The translations under genes and the position numbers were made by a program. The notes below the pieces were generated by a model. It searched no databases and was not told the origin of the DNA. It was given only the letters and a program-made list of their open reading frames with translations. From an uncultured Lachnoclostridium sp. (GTDB lineage: Bacteria; Bacillota; Clostridia; Lachnospirales; Lachnospiraceae), in NCBI GenBank assembly GCA_946499505.1, contig CAMMSL010000018.1:1-52003 (forward strand): a DNA stretch of 52,003 nucleotides, given 5' to 3'. Positions 24,223 through 28,493 of this stretch are shown one piece after another (the stretch's first letter is position 1; each line of letters begins with the position of its first letter).

Positions 24223-24450
24223 ATGCGCCGCAATGATGCGCCGTTTAACGGAAAACAGTTCATATTAAATAAAAACACAGGGGAAATCCACGATCTGGAC
24301 CGCGAATCTCCTCTGTGCTGTATTGACAAAATAGAGGCCGATAATATCTTTGCCTGTGACACCTATGCAGAAGCCGTGCTGTTCGCATCTGTACTGGGAA
24401 TCACGAGAAACGGATGCGCTCACTGCTTGCCGGAGCATCACAGAGATTAA
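24223..24450 (+). CDS. Small protein with a probable His/Cys zinc site (75 aa)
   Basis: The 75-residue frame has a strong site (AAAGGAGTTGATCTT) and its own consensus promoter. The product reads FILNKNTGEIHDLD, then a Cys pair, then ends with CAHCLPEHHRD. This pattern, an N-x-N-T-x3-HD start with a terminal CxxC-x-P, parallels the last ~50 residues of the nuclease at 37266 (YIINENTEKFHDPD ... PCGICKP). I infer a free-standing version of the same Ada-like zinc-binding module; the function is unknown. Its stop overlaps the stop of the convergent carboxypeptidase gene by two bases. Confidence 0.7.
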   Translation: MRRNDAPFNGKQFILNKNTGEIHDLDRESPLCCIDKIEADNIFACDTYAEAVLFASVLGITRNGCAHCLPEHHRD

Positions 24451-25292
24451 TTTATCCCCAGATATTCCTCCAGACAGAGTTTATTCTCATACATTTCTGC
24501 CGCCGCTTCTTTTCCTACATAACGATAATGCCACGGTTCATAGATAATACCGGTGATATCGCTCTTATCAGTAGGATAACGGAGGACAAATCCGTACTTC
24601 CAGCTGTTCTTCATCAGCCATTGCTGGACCGGTGTATTTTCCTGCTCTGTGTCCAGCTGCTGATAGCTGACATCTACAATGTCCAGAGCCAGTCCCAGCT
24701 GATGTTCGCTTGTCCCCGGGTATGCAACCACCTTTGCAGCTTCAGCCTCAACCTCATTTTCCGGGCATCCTTCGCGGATCAGACGTGCTTCTTTGTCATC
24801 AAACAGAGCTTCCTGCTTCTCCATAGTCCGGTACGACGCACAGATTAGGGGATCAAATCCTGCCGCCCGGCAGTCGTCCATCATCTGCTGGAGCTCCGGA
24901 TAGCATCTGGAGTCCACCGCCTGTCCGTTTCTCAGATAAGTCAGTTCCGGTTCATAGTTCTCCGGAACCGGATTCCACGGATTGACAAGAACCAGGTTCC
25001 ACACCTGTTCCTGCGCATTTTTCTGCTGATGTGACCGGGCCGCCCGGCTGTCCTGCTGCCCCGATGACGTATCTGACGAAGCTGCAGTTTCAACCGCCTG
25101 ACTTTCAGTTGCCTGTCCTGTTATCCCTCCGATTCCGTCGGTAAAGATCACCCTTCCGCACAAAATCAGGATCAATACGGTCCCAATGATAACTGCCGAC
25201 AGTCTGACGCCGGTCTTTCGGAATCTTCTCCTTCTCTGACCGCACCTTCCCCTGCATGTCCTGTAGTATCTCTGCTGTTTTCTGTATGACAT
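24447..25292 (-). CDS. D-alanyl-D-alanine carboxypeptidase, VanY/M15B family
   Basis: A 281-residue membrane-anchored zinc peptidase that trims the terminal D-Ala from peptidoglycan stems. A very basic N-terminus precedes one hydrophobic segment at about residues 29-50, then a low-complexity Ser/Gln linker and the catalytic domain. The metal ligands are in GTSEHQLGLALDIVD (His, Asp) and EPWHYRYVG (His). The start follows GAGGTGAGTATTT. An 18-bp direct-repeat site about 70-90 bp upstream is shared with the response regulator promoter at 28373. This suggests control by that two-component system, as vanY genes often are. Confidence 0.9.
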   Translation of the reverse strand: MSYRKQQRYYRTCRGRCGQRRRRFRKTGVRLSAVIIGTVLILILCGRVIFTDGIGGITGQATESQAVETAASSDTSSGQQDSRAARSHQQKNAQEQVWNLVLVNPWNPVPENYEPELTYLRNGQAVDSRCYPELQQMMDDCRAAGFDPLICASYRTMEKQEALFDDKEARLIREGCPENEVEAEAAKVVAYPGTSEHQLGLALDIVDVSYQQLDTEQENTPVQQWLMKNSWKYGFVLRYPTDKSDITGIIYEPWHYRYVGKEAAAEMYENKLCLEEYLGIN

Positions 25293-25363
25293 AAATACTC
25301 ACCTCATTGGTTTTTATTATGTCATAATCTTAAAGTACCATTCCTTCAGGAAAGCATAATGCC

Positions 25364-25381
25364 GGCATCAAAATGGCATCA
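25364..25381 (-). promoter_or_regulatory. Predicted response-regulator operator upstream of the VanY-like gene
   Basis: Read on the minus strand: TGATGCCATTTTGATGCC, two TGATGCC half-sites with an 11-nt period, the usual geometry for OmpR/PhoB-type dimers. The same arrangement with one mismatch lies upstream of the response regulator gene. A TATGCT hexamer follows five bases after the second half-site and could be the -10. Confidence 0.6.
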
Positions 25382-25395
25382 TTTATCTCATCTTT

Positions 25396-26250
25396 CTAGA
25401 AAGTCCGGTTCCATGTATACACGGTTCCGTACCGATCCCGTTCCAGATCGAGCGTGATATTTTCCCCATTCTCATCCTCAAAAAAGAGCCGGGCAAAACA
25501 GGACTCATCCTTTACGTGGTACTCTCTATCTGTATACCGGAATCCGTAATATTCTTCACAGAAAGTCTGCATCCCGTCGCTTTTTTCCCGAAGATCTTCC
25601 TGTATCTCTTTGTTTATTTCTTCTTCATTTCGATATCCCTCTTCTGTATCCGTATCTGCCCCATACCGGGTAAGGCTGAAAGAAAGCATTTTCCCGCTCC
25701 GGTCGTCAATCAGAATTTCAAGATCAATGCCCGCCTGAGGATCGGATACATAACATTTCCATATAATTCCCATCTGCACGCCATCGCCGGAACCGTTTTG
25801 TTCTGAAGTATCCGCCGTGTTTTCTTCTATATCGCCTGTTGATGCAATATCATCTGCATCGTCATATCCGTAAGCGTCATCAGAAAGCATTTTCCCTTTT
25901 ACAGCTATAAACGGAGACAGCGAAAAATCCTCGCATTCGATTTTGTCCAGCACTCCGTGCTCTGACAGACGGTTTATTATGTCTTCGGCGCTTATTCTTA
26001 TATCTCTCTCATCACTTACGGCGCCATGGTCCAGATATAGTTCATTCTCATAGGCATCTGCCAGTTTCAGCATATCTTCCAGTCTCGCGTCTGCTGCCGA
26101 CGGCACTTTTCCTATGGCAAATGTCTCTGCCCGTACGCTCAGCTTTTGATCTGCGGCTCTCCCCGCAAGATCCGGCAGGAAATAGCCGACGGCCAATGCA
26201 GCTGCGGCTAAAAAGGTTGCTGCAACGGCCATTCCCCTTCTATTTTTCAT
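25396..26250 (-). CDS. Membrane-anchored extracytoplasmic protein of unknown function in the two-component operon
   Basis: I do not recognise this 284-residue protein. It has an N-terminal hydrophobic segment (residues 8-25) after a short basic start, and the rest is acidic and should lie outside the membrane. A low-complexity, Asp/Glu/Thr-rich stretch at about 125-155 separates two folded parts. The C-terminal part contains a string of beta-strand-like segments. Its ATG follows GGAGGCCGTT and overlaps the kinase stop by 11 bp, so it is made with the sensor. A role as an accessory or feedback protein for the kinase is inference from position only. Confidence 0.7.
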   Translation of the reverse strand: MKNRRGMAVAATFLAAAALAVGYFLPDLAGRAADQKLSVRAETFAIGKVPSAADARLEDMLKLADAYENELYLDHGAVSDERDIRISAEDIINRLSEHGVLDKIECEDFSLSPFIAVKGKMLSDDAYGYDDADDIASTGDIEENTADTSEQNGSGDGVQMGIIWKCYVSDPQAGIDLEILIDDRSGKMLSFSLTRYGADTDTEEGYRNEEEINKEIQEDLREKSDGMQTFCEEYYGFRYTDREYHVKDESCFARLFFEDENGENITLDLERDRYGTVYTWNRTF

Positions 26251-27646
26251 AACGGCCTCCTCTCAGTTCGGCAATCACTCTTGTTCCTCCGCCTCTGCGT
26301 CTTTTAAAAACAAGAGTCCCGCCATGCAGTTTTACAATCTCTGCGCACAGAGTCAGCCCCAGTCCGGCTCCCCCCTGCTTTCTCGACCTCGACTTATCGA
26401 CCCGGTAAAACGCTTCGGTCAGATGTTCTCTTGCTTCTTCCGGGATTCCCGGTCCGTCGTCTTCCACACAGAGTAGACAGCCCTCATCGGTCATTCTGAC
26501 CGTCACCCATATATGTCCGCCTTCCCCGGCAGCCTTGGACGCGTTATCTATCAGATTGACAGTCAGAGAACGAAACAGATCCGGTTCAAGCAGACATCTT
26601 CCTTTTTCATACTTCCCTTTCAGAGTGATCTTTTTCTTTTTAAAGACCGGTCTTAAATGATCTGTCATATTTTCTGCGATACGGCCCGGGCTATGGATAG
26701 ACAGCCGGACGTCTGTCTTCTCTGCCACATAGATATCCAGAAGTTTCATAGACAGGCGCTCCAGCCGTCTTCCTTCAGAGAAAATGTAATCAGCCGCATC
26801 TCTTCTCTCCTCTTCAGTAAGTTCCTGACTGCGGAGAAGATCCGCATATCCGATTACTGCTGTCATAGGTGTTTTCATCTCATGGGTAAAGCTCCCCACA
26901 AATCTCTCCTGCCGTTCTACAGCCTGTTCAAGTTTGCGGACATTGGCCTCTATCTGCTCCGCCATCCGGTCAAAATCCTCTGACAGACTCCCGATTTCAT
27001 CACCGGAACGAATATTTGTCCGGAATGAAAGATTGCCTCCCGAGATTTCTCTGGCTCCCGTTGCCAGTACAGACAGCGGACGGGTCAGTAAATATGCCGT
27101 CCCATATGAAAACAGCGCGCATATGATCATTGCTGCCACAAAAATAATCCTGTAAATTCTCTGCTGGTATTCTCTCTTTTCATACAGAGATGAAATATCA
27201 TGTCCGGCATCCAGGTACATCGTCTGATCTCCGGATAAAAATCCGCCTGAAACCCTGATGTATGTGTCCCCGTCATCTGTACGGAAAGAAGTGACCACAC
27301 ACACATCTTCATTGCCTCTTTCTTCTGTCCGGGTCAGATATTCCGCCGCTTTCCCTTGACTGTACAGCACTCCGTCATCTCCGGAAAGGGCAATCAAATC
27401 CCAGTAACTTCCTCTCTGTCCGGCTATCTGCCGGAGCGTAACCTGCATGTCCTCCTCAGAATATGTCTCTGTTTCTCCTGACATCTGCAGAGTGTATATC
27501 AGCAGCCTGTATGAATTCTCCGCAGTATCCCTTTCCTGTTCCAGACCATTTTGAAATGAAATAAGAATCAGGGCACTGCTCCCCACTCCAAACAAAATAC
27601 TTACAAGGCACAGCATACAGACCATAATCTTGATCCTGAACTTCAT
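26240..27646 (-). CDS. Sensor histidine kinase (EnvZ/VanS-like)
   Basis: A 468-residue kinase with two membrane segments (about 8-31 and 163-187), which gives an extracellular sensor of about 130 residues. A HAMP region (188-245) is followed by the dimerisation/phosphorylation helix with His255 in SFTHEMKTPMTAVIGY. The N box (LTVNLIDNASKA), G1 (VEDDGPGIP) and G2 (GAGLGLTLC) of the ATPase domain are complete. The start follows GGAGGTGGACAG and overlaps the regulator stop (ATGA). The operon order is regulator, kinase, secreted protein. Confidence 0.93.
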   Translation of the reverse strand: MKFRIKIMVCMLCLVSILFGVGSSALILISFQNGLEQERDTAENSYRLLIYTLQMSGETETYSEEDMQVTLRQIAGQRGSYWDLIALSGDDGVLYSQGKAAEYLTRTEERGNEDVCVVTSFRTDDGDTYIRVSGGFLSGDQTMYLDAGHDISSLYEKREYQQRIYRIIFVAAMIICALFSYGTAYLLTRPLSVLATGAREISGGNLSFRTNIRSGDEIGSLSEDFDRMAEQIEANVRKLEQAVERQERFVGSFTHEMKTPMTAVIGYADLLRSQELTEEERRDAADYIFSEGRRLERLSMKLLDIYVAEKTDVRLSIHSPGRIAENMTDHLRPVFKKKKITLKGKYEKGRCLLEPDLFRSLTVNLIDNASKAAGEGGHIWVTVRMTDEGCLLCVEDDGPGIPEEAREHLTEAFYRVDKSRSRKQGGAGLGLTLCAEIVKLHGGTLVFKRRRGGGTRVIAELRGGRYEK

Positions 27647-28302
27647 CTGTCCACCTCCAGCCTGTATCCCACCTTATTTACAGCCTTCAGTTCCCGACTC
27701 CACTCCACCTTCTTCCGCAACCGCTGGACCAGCAGATCCACCGCTTTGCTTCCATACTCAAATTCTCCGCCCCACACTCTTTCATAGATAGTTTCTCTGT
27801 AAAGTGCAGTGTTTGGATTTCTAGCAAATAGAAGAAGCAAATCATATTCTTTTTTCGTCAGAGGAATCTCTCTCCCGTTTCTCGTCACCTGCATGGATTT
27901 CAGATCTATGTGGAGCCCGCATATATCCATCGTCTCATCTGTAAGTCTGAAACGGCGCAGCACTACGTCTACCCGGGCCAGAAGTTCTATGATCGCAAAA
28001 GGTTTCACGATATAGTCCTCGGCTCCCATACGCAGTCCTTTTACCCTGTCTTTTACAGAATCCTTTGCCGTAATAAAAATCACCGGTATCTCCTTCGGCC
28101 GGATATACTCCATTAATTCGAATCCGTCTATTTTCGGAAGCATTACATCAAGCAGGATCAGATCATATATATTACTGCCGATTTTCTCCACAGCTTCTTC
28201 CCCATCATATGCACATTCACATTGATACCCCGATCTTTTCAGACTCATCTCCATCATTTTCGATATAGAGATCTCGTCTTCAACGATCAATATTTTTATC
28301 AT
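27643..28302 (-). CDS. OmpR-family response regulator
   Basis: A 219-residue DNA-binding regulator. I choose the ATG at 28302, six codons inside the longest frame, since it follows AGAGGGAAAAGGT and gives the standard MIKILIVEDE start. The receiver domain has the phospho-acceptor Asp52 (LILLDVMLP) and the conserved Lys in FITAKDS. The C-terminal winged helix has GREIPLTKKEYDLLLLFARN and the recognition region VDLLVQRLRKKVE. A direct-repeat operator just upstream of its -10 points to autoregulation, and the same site is found before the VanY-like gene. Confidence 0.94.
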   Translation of the reverse strand: MIKILIVEDEISISKMMEMSLKRSGYQCECAYDGEEAVEKIGSNIYDLILLDVMLPKIDGFELMEYIRPKEIPVIFITAKDSVKDRVKGLRMGAEDYIVKPFAIIELLARVDVVLRRFRLTDETMDICGLHIDLKSMQVTRNGREIPLTKKEYDLLLLFARNPNTALYRETIYERVWGGEFEYGSKAVDLLVQRLRKKVEWSRELKAVNKVGYRLEVDR

Positions 28303-28326
28303 ACCTTTTCCCTCTCGCATAAAATA

Positions 28327-28357
28327 ATCCCTGCTTTCTCACAACAAAAGCAGGGAT
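28327..28357 (-). promoter_or_regulatory. Stem-loop in the response-regulator leader
   Basis: On the minus strand ATCCCTGCTT pairs with AAGCAGGGAT, followed by TATTTT and then the start region. It lies between the -10 element and the gene, so it would be at the 5' end of the mRNA. It could be an attenuator or an mRNA-stabilising hairpin. Confidence 0.5.
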
Positions 28358-28390
28358 ATTATACCTCAATCCGGCATCAAAATGGCAACA
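28358..28390 (-). promoter_or_regulatory. Promoter and operator of the response-regulator operon
   Basis: A perfect TATAAT (28358-28363) is preceded, 9 nt upstream, by TGTTGCCATTTTGATGCC (28373-28390 on the plus-strand map). The two half-sites have an 11-nt period and take the place of a -35 box, the layout of an activator-dependent promoter. It nearly matches the site at 25364-25381. Confidence 0.65.
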
Positions 28391-28420
28391 AAAAAGCACC
28401 GCAAATATACGGTGCTTTCA
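28391..28420 (-). terminator. Terminator after tRNA-Trp
   Basis: On the minus strand AAAGCACCG and CGGTGCTTT form a 9-bp stem with an 8-nt loop followed by a run of T. It lies 3 bp beyond the tRNA 3' end and insulates it from the response-regulator operon. Confidence 0.9.
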
Positions 28421-28422
28421 AG

Positions 28423-28493
28423 CAGGGGATGAGAGAATCGAACTCCCACCAAAGGTTTTGGAGACCCCTATCATACCATTTGACCAATCCCCT
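28423..28493 (-). tRNA. tRNA-Trp (anticodon CCA)
   Basis: A 71-nt cloverleaf: acceptor AGGGGAT / ATCCCCT with discriminator G, D arm GTCA / TGAT, anticodon stem GGGGT / ACCTT (with two G-U pairs) around loop CTCCAAA, and T arm GGGAG / CTCTC with loop TTCGATT. The CCA tail is not encoded. It is preceded by a consensus promoter and followed by a terminator, so it is a single-gene unit. Confidence 0.96.

Follow-up and report, generated by a model that had tools for sequence, protein, structure and literature searches.

A direct-repeat operator shared by a two-component operon and a VanY-type D,D-carboxypeptidase gene in an uncultured Lachnoclostridium sp. suggests a self-amplifying wall-remodelling circuit

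Class II activation by PhoB/OmpR-type response regulators uses 11-bp direct repeats that abut a -10 element without a -35, and at PhoB promoters the direct repeats stand in place of the -35. To our knowledge, little regulatory data exist for scattered gut Clostridia or for Eggerthellaceae. According to excerpts of the respective papers, VanR has one 12-bp site at the PR promoter and two at PH (PMC4405338), DacRS of Clostridioides difficile activates the promoter of a D,D-carboxypeptidase (DacJ) and likely its own (PMC11326576), and ddcSR mutations in Enterococcus faecium lead to production of a metallo-D,D-carboxypeptidase, from which an L,D-transpeptidase receives its tetrapeptide donors (PMC12729407). 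Here we describe a 52,003-nucleotide stretch (hereafter the window; CAMMSL010000018.1, contig C18 of a 3.08-Mb genome, GCA_946499505.1) from an uncultured Lachnoclostridium sp., in which a response-regulator operon and a separate VanY-type carboxypeptidase gene carry nearly the same direct-repeat operator. From comparative sequence we consider it highly probable that the OmpR/PhoB-type regulator activates both its own operon and the VanY promoter in a self-amplifying two-component circuit. The order on the minus strand is tRNA-Trp, response regulator, sensor kinase, third gene, VanY-type carboxypeptidase and a terminator-like hairpin, and the elements on which the argument turns are as follows.

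28373-28390, minus strand: regulator-operon operator, composed of the half-sites R1 TGTTGCC and R2 TGATGCC at an 11-bp period (sequence and genome search).
28364-28368, minus strand: degenerate third half-site, TGAGG here and mostly TGATG in relatives, abutting the -10 (logo positions 22-26).
28358-28363, minus strand: regulator -10, TATAAT, at +27 from R1, without a -35 consensus (sequence and offset test).
27643-28302, minus strand: OmpR/PhoB-type response regulator, 219 amino acids, alternative start at 28320 (Response_reg and Trans_reg_C, both above cut-off).
26240-27646, minus strand: sensor histidine kinase with HAMP, HisKA and HATPase (domain search; AlphaFold model).
25396-26250, minus strand: third gene, encoding a predicted membrane-anchored protein without a Pfam family (model and profile search).
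25364-25381, minus strand: vanY operator, strong half-sites R1 and R2, TGATGCC-ATTT-TGATGCC (sequence and genome search).
25342-25359, minus strand: two weaker half-sites that keep the 11-bp register, R3 TTATGCT and R4 TGAAGGA (sequence; partly conserved VanY logo columns 22-40).
25327-25332, minus strand: vanY -10, TAAGAT, at +49 from R1 (sequence and offset test).
24447-25292, minus strand: VanY-type D,D-carboxypeptidase, 281 amino acids, N-terminal hydrophobic stretch (PF02557, 134.8 bits against a cut-off of 25).

The two operators form a near-exact pair that is rare in the genome. A preliminary description of this DNA had placed TGATGCC-N4-TGATGCC before the VanY-like gene, where it is indeed found, 14 bp from the stop of the third gene, and had counted 17 of 18 agreeing bases across sites about 3 kb apart; the sites lie 3,009 bases apart and differ at exactly one position in 18, a likeness that was understated, as 19 of 20 bases agree once the following GG is counted (TGTTGCCATTTTGATGCCGG at 28371-28390 and TGATGCCATTTTGATGCCGG at 25362-25381, both oriented as their genes). 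The same description had TGTTGCC-N4-TGATGCC sitting in the place of the -35 of the regulator operon, and the hexamer 17 bp upstream of TATAAT is GCCATT, which falls within half-site 1 and the spacer. In the genome-wide search that had been asked for, TGNTGCC-N4-TGATGCC occurs exactly only at these two places in 3.08 Mb. One mismatch allowed in this pattern (TGNTGCCNNNNTGATGCC) adds two more, each within an open reading frame (ORF) of at least 200 amino acids; the 20-mer at up to three mismatches has one further genome match, and of 299 family genomes (an even draw over the family) the present one alone contains the exact 18-mer TGATGCCRTTTTGATGCC. Within the window alone, matches to the pattern at up to three mismatches are not above chance (9 against 5.99 expected), and thus the strength of the observation lies in the near-exact pair.

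Conservation was assessed in the best 80 of 408 relatives' loci, obtained by a scan with the regulator protein (81 rows with the window); many of these loci derive from metagenome assemblies, and all are akin to one another, so the counts that follow are not independent events. An operator with up to two mismatches lies upstream of the regulator in 48 of 81 rows and upstream of VanY in 27 of 46 rows, as against 0/81 and 0/46 after a single shuffle per row. A matrix built from 47 regulator sites, with the window left out, scored at least 8 bits in 24 of 45 VanY upstream regions versus 5 of 382 other upstream regions. In the genus sample (58 genomes, a set overlapping the 80 loci), the 13 third-gene genomes besides the window (stretches L009-L021) all have an adjoining VanY and a site with up to four mismatches and TAnnnT at +49 (13/13 each), although that scan required TAnnnT and is therefore weaker than a test scoring every offset from 18 to 69.

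Such a test was applied to the promoters of the 80 loci, with TAnnnT scored at every offset from 18 to 69 in rows whose site has up to two mismatches and at least 60 bases past the site start, near-identical rows being dropped. At regulator promoters TAnnnT stands at +27 in 29 of 32 non-redundant rows (next best offset 5/25), and at VanY promoters it stands at +49 in 23 of 23 (next best 2/23; 29/32 when three mismatches are allowed in the site). Logos anchored on the site agree, with no -35 and a sharp -10 in both promoter types: TA at positions 27-28 and T at 32 for the regulator (T in 42, A in 44 and T in 43 of 45 sequences, from 48), and TA at 49-50 and T at 54 for VanY (T in 23 and A in 23 of 24, T in 23 of 23, from 27). 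Because the two offsets differ by 22 bp, which is two 11-bp periods, the VanY promoter holds four half-sites, in the order R1-R2-R3-R4-(9 bp)-(-10); the weaker R3 and R4 had been overlooked in the preliminary description. R4 occupies the position that R2 has at the regulator promoter, and both start 16 bp before the -10. An operator with an 11-nucleotide period had been said to suit an OmpR-type dimer, and the shared operator does have this period and does adjoin an OmpR-type regulator gene, a fit read from sequence. By analogy with VanR at PR and PH, we infer that the regulator would occupy its own promoter as one dimer and the vanY promoter as two.

The operator, its geometry, the gene order and the enzyme family can be read from the sequence and its conservation, and comparative sequence likewise supports the proposal that regulator, kinase, third gene and VanY form a compact regulon, with the autoregulation that this implies. 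In the mechanism we propose, the membrane kinase would phosphorylate the OmpR/PhoB-type regulator, and the membrane-anchored third protein would probably tune the kinase. The regulator would bind head-to-tail TGATGCC half-sites at 11-bp spacing: at its own operon a single dimer site, R1-R2, immediately upstream of a -10 without a -35, and at vanY a strong dimer site, R1-R2, in tandem with a weak one, R3-R4, the strong pair lying two periods further upstream. The output would be a surface D,D-carboxypeptidase that takes the terminal D-Ala off pentapeptide stems; D-Ala-D-Ala would fall and tetrapeptides, the usual L,D-transpeptidase donor, would be supplied, the proposed purpose being to adjust stem peptides and the mode of cross-linking in response to envelope stress.

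The same promoter type is also found before other wall enzymes in some relatives (lists of these targets were assembled post hoc, following the matrix test). The five matches among the 382 control regions lie at two FemAB genes (L046 and L087, divergent from the regulator), at two YkuD L,D-transpeptidase genes with PG_binding_4 in VanY's position (L097 and L106), and, in Enteroscipio rubneri, at the gene of a further response regulator unlike the first (L049, divergent, with an exact operator). TAnnnT stands at +49 in four of the five; the exception is L046, where the best site before FemAB has TCGATG at +49 and TACCAT at +27. In L059 (3137-5002, minus strand) FemAB and VanY domains are joined in a single 621-residue ORF, which diverges from the regulator gene and lies behind imperfect half-sites with a -10 at +49. 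In L107 an L,D-transpeptidase overlaps the third gene. A second operator, exact and with NATAAT as the hexamer at +49, precedes a protein of 77-79 amino acids with a single hydrophobic stretch in L094 (8866-9099), L098 (8884-9120) and L103 (8872-9111); the L098 protein has no Pfam match, and the regulator promoters of these three loci show no site (5-6 mismatches, no geometry). The records of these three loci are two Saccharofermentans and one Ruminococcaceae. In L058 (8952-9650), an operator with TAAGAT at +49 precedes a truncated ORF without a Pfam match, which by eye looks like the Asp/Glu-racemase family.

A looser form of the operator, TGNNGCCRTTYTGATGCC, occurs at 16 sites in 10 of the 58 genus genomes. 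Ten of these sites were viewed in their surroundings: two are those of the window, three precede VanY (L109, L110 and L113), three precede a regulator gene (L115, L117 and L118), one has the regulator-promoter layout close to a contig end (L116), and L114 (G340:C10, 16654-16671), an exact operator with a -10 at +49, precedes an L,D-transpeptidase gene in a genome that holds its VanY locus on another contig. The other six of the 16 sites are L111, L112 and L119-L122.

The order regulator-kinase-third gene recurs, and an iterated profile places a third-gene homologue in that position at 74 of 80 loci (E-values for 75 proteins only). Run against the full set of 3,417 mechanical ORFs from these loci, the profile gave 82 matches, the 74 and eight others, which overlap or follow the kinase end (L034 in two pieces, L050, L076, L085, L086 and L089) or follow a second kinase (L107). 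Extra third-gene-family copies, beside the first copy or a second kinase, include L089 3637-4431, L086 4919-5692 and L107 1064-1744; in Mediterraneibacter catenae (L034, 5983-7905) the regulator and kinase matches share a single ORF, and the third gene is split in two. The third protein had been called secreted, whereas in the predicted model it is membrane-anchored. Its model resembles the C-terminal fold of YpeB (tandem PepSY-like), and fold matches other than YpeB are at the level of common arrangements. No PepSY Pfam domain is among the 17 families matched at E<=0.1 by any of 42 members of the third-gene family, and a protein search returned 70 proteins at E<=0.001, none with a Pfam domain and with 'hypothetical protein' as the sole name shown. 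The kinase model (pTM 0.42) has two predicted long helices either side of an extracytoplasmic region.

Of the 80 loci, 45 have a VanY-like ORF, and nine of the 35 contigs without one end within 200 bases past the third gene or before it (L042, L043, L053, L060, L063, L066, L077, L083 and L095). By comparative sequence, the putative wall-remodelling circuit is spread over scattered gut Clostridia and one Eggerthellaceae isolate. The isolate, the actinobacterial Enteroscipio rubneri (L049, 4748-5518 and 5995-9688), has the entire cassette. The closest named matches of the regulator are mostly Mediterraneibacter records, one with chicken in its title.

Several observations weigh against the proposed circuit and its generality. 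Among the 20 regulator promoters with at least four mismatches, ten keep three half-sites (for example AGATGGT and TGATGTT) and a -10 at +27 (geometry score of at least 12 of 15, reached by 6 of 1000 shuffles), but the other ten show no repeat array in the geometry scan. At VanY, 19 of 46 rows have at least three mismatches, and only 10 of these 19 show a site with TAnnnT at +49. Occurrence is patchy: a profile detects the third gene in 24 of 299 family genomes (several E-values marginal) and a single-sequence search in 1 of 299, and within the genus it is found in 14 of 58 genomes. The present genome holds three VanY-family and two YkuD genes, and when the two YkuD and the two further VanY-family genes were scanned with the matrix on the returned stretches, none was accepted (best score 7.7, inside the YkuD ORF of L124, and elsewhere at most 4.2); a role in cross-linking is thus argued from relatives. 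Finally, the recognition helix is alike in almost every relative, even where the half-sites have changed, so co-variation gives no proof of the binder, and helix/half-site co-variation was set aside as a test because the helices are too similar for a decision.

This lack of visible co-variation, together with the point that adjacency by itself does not identify a binder, leaves some room for the repeats being the operator of another regulator, such as a repressor encoded elsewhere, with the adjacent two-component system merely one target. We consider this quite improbable: direct repeats replacing the -35 are the pattern of OmpR/PhoB activators and resemble VanR-type repeats as excerpted (PMC4405338), and the site goes with the regulator gene in many Clostridia and in one Enteroscipio locus, while the exact 18-mer is rare elsewhere. 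We infer that the adjacent regulator is the binder and that it activates rather than represses. That the likeness of the two sites reflects a recent local duplication or chance, without function, has practically no probability left in our judgement; the genome does have just two copies, but the two have different flanks, their -10 offsets are exactly 22 bp apart and relatives of other species and genera retain both, and this explanation was rejected as contradicted by conservation, genome-wide rarity and fixed offsets. A rival concerning the third gene, that it encodes a chaperone or inhibitor of VanY rather than a sensor partner, draws on the predicted resemblance to the YpeB C-terminal domain and on the link of PepSY domains with protease inhibition, as stated in one paper (PMC12714742). 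It is somewhat unlikely, as the third gene adjoins the kinase gene also where the locus shows no VanY (L097, L106, L107, L094, L098 and L103), which favours a kinase partner like DbfQ.

The rival with most bearing on physiology is that of the preliminary description, which saw an analogy with glycopeptide-response systems: in a dedicated resistance circuit, the kinase would detect vancomycin-like compounds and VanY would strip D-Ala for protection. VanY does score best against the VanY-B/VanY-G model (NF000473), its nearest PDB chains are named D-alanyl-D-alanine carboxypeptidase (5zhf closest, E 1.9e-54), and it carries SEHQLGLALD and EPWH, which we take to be the catalytic motifs. In C. difficile, an excerpted study reports that excess DacJ removes vancomycin binding sites and that DacS of the 630 laboratory strain responds to vancomycin, but also that DacRS of strain R20291 does not (PMC11326576). 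Against the analogy, the VanY score is 215 bits for a cut-off of 400, and all VanR/VanS models stay below cut-off (NF033117, 157.5/350; NF033120, 165/460; NF000402, 137.2/480; NF033091, 125.8/400). The VanR box (T/C)CGTANGAAA(T/A)T has no match with up to two mismatches in 25293-25395 or 28321-28421, the promoter regions, and 58 matches against 48 expected across the window. The genome has no match to the VanX-type peptidase family (PF01427), which supports the earlier remark that vanHAX is missing as far as vanX is concerned, vanH and vanA not having been searched. Since the same promoter type is coupled to L,D-transpeptidase and FemAB genes and a FemAB-VanY fusion in some relatives, more general control of stem peptides and cross-linking is indicated; dedicated glycopeptide resistance is unlikely in our view, and the analogy is not supported as first drawn.

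General control of stem peptides and cross-linking, with glycopeptide defence as one use, may thus be the better description of the circuit, judging from the genes behind the operator. A bolder form is possible, and we put it forward tentatively: a 'cross-link mode' switch, widespread but patchy in gut Clostridia, in which regulators of a single family, whose operator grammar is conserved (one dimer and +27 for itself, two dimers and +49 for effectors), would control swappable stem-peptide enzymes (VanY, L,D-transpeptidase, FemAB or the natural FemAB-VanY fusion) with a tandem PepSY-like co-sensor. If so, a shift from D,D- to L,D-cross-linking and a drop in D-Ala-D-Ala would occur together under envelope stress. 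The swapping of effectors hints at the purpose of the system, and the lone VanY may matter for beta-lactam and glycopeptide tolerance in commensals without a VanX-type gene.

Three further elements flank or lie within the two transcription units.

28390-28419, minus strand: hairpin with a T-run, resembling a terminator, behind the upstream tRNA-Trp gene (by eye; absent from the hairpin scan listing).
28327-28357, minus strand: hairpin with a 12-bp stem that opens the regulator transcript, directly after the -10 (kept only in close relatives).
24282-24311, minus strand: candidate terminator after vanY (pattern match only).

The last base of the first of these is the first base of the operator, and tRNA-Trp itself lies at 28422-28493. 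An att-like repeat of the tRNA 3' end, as a sign of an island, was sought in the window and only the gene itself was found; a PADLOC scan gave merely weak domain-level matches. The leader hairpin shows stem-keeping changes in L029-L032, L034 and L117 and is lost in L033; it could be a 5' stabiliser or an attenuator.

In the open-access literature, searched by titles and abstract starts, no paper was recognised as describing this operator or cassette. Among known systems, DacJRS comes close by description, as its two-component system activates the gene of a putative D,D-carboxypeptidase through a promoter of that gene's own and probably autoregulates, which is what we propose for the circuit here; a third gene as here is not mentioned in the excerpts available, and 'direct repeat' is absent from the main text (PMC11326576). 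By sequence, the regulator operon and carboxypeptidase promoters here both carry the same site. DdcRS-DdcY, also likened by description, shares the two-component-linked D,D-carboxypeptidase but is called cryptic in the part seen of its source (PMC12729407). VanRS/VanY (vanA, vanB and vanG) shares the OmpR/PhoB-type regulator, directly repeated boxes and an accessory VanY-family enzyme, and in vanA the regulator promoter carries one box and the effector promoter two, as we propose here (excerpts of PMC4405338 and PMC8541618); it differs in its 12-bp consensus, not found in the promoters here, in its VanX-type gene and in Van proteins whose cut-offs those of this locus do not reach. In DbfQRS of Vibrio cholerae an extracytoplasmic PepSY protein, encoded beside the two-component system, binds the kinase sensor domain, according to the available excerpt (PMC12714742), whereas the third protein here has no Pfam PepSY match and is, by its model, membrane-anchored and two-domain, the likeness being one of predicted fold alone. 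The repeat layout is that of PhoB/OmpR class II activation, with TGATGCC rather than a pho-box sequence as half-site. The circuit thus joins the known two-component/D,D-carboxypeptidase circuits (VanRS, DdcRS-DdcY and DacRS-DacJ) as a variant, and it offers a testable operator and promoter rule for wall remodelling, in which the 22-bp, two-period shift is a natural experiment on how responses at an OmpR-type activator's own gene and at its target are set.

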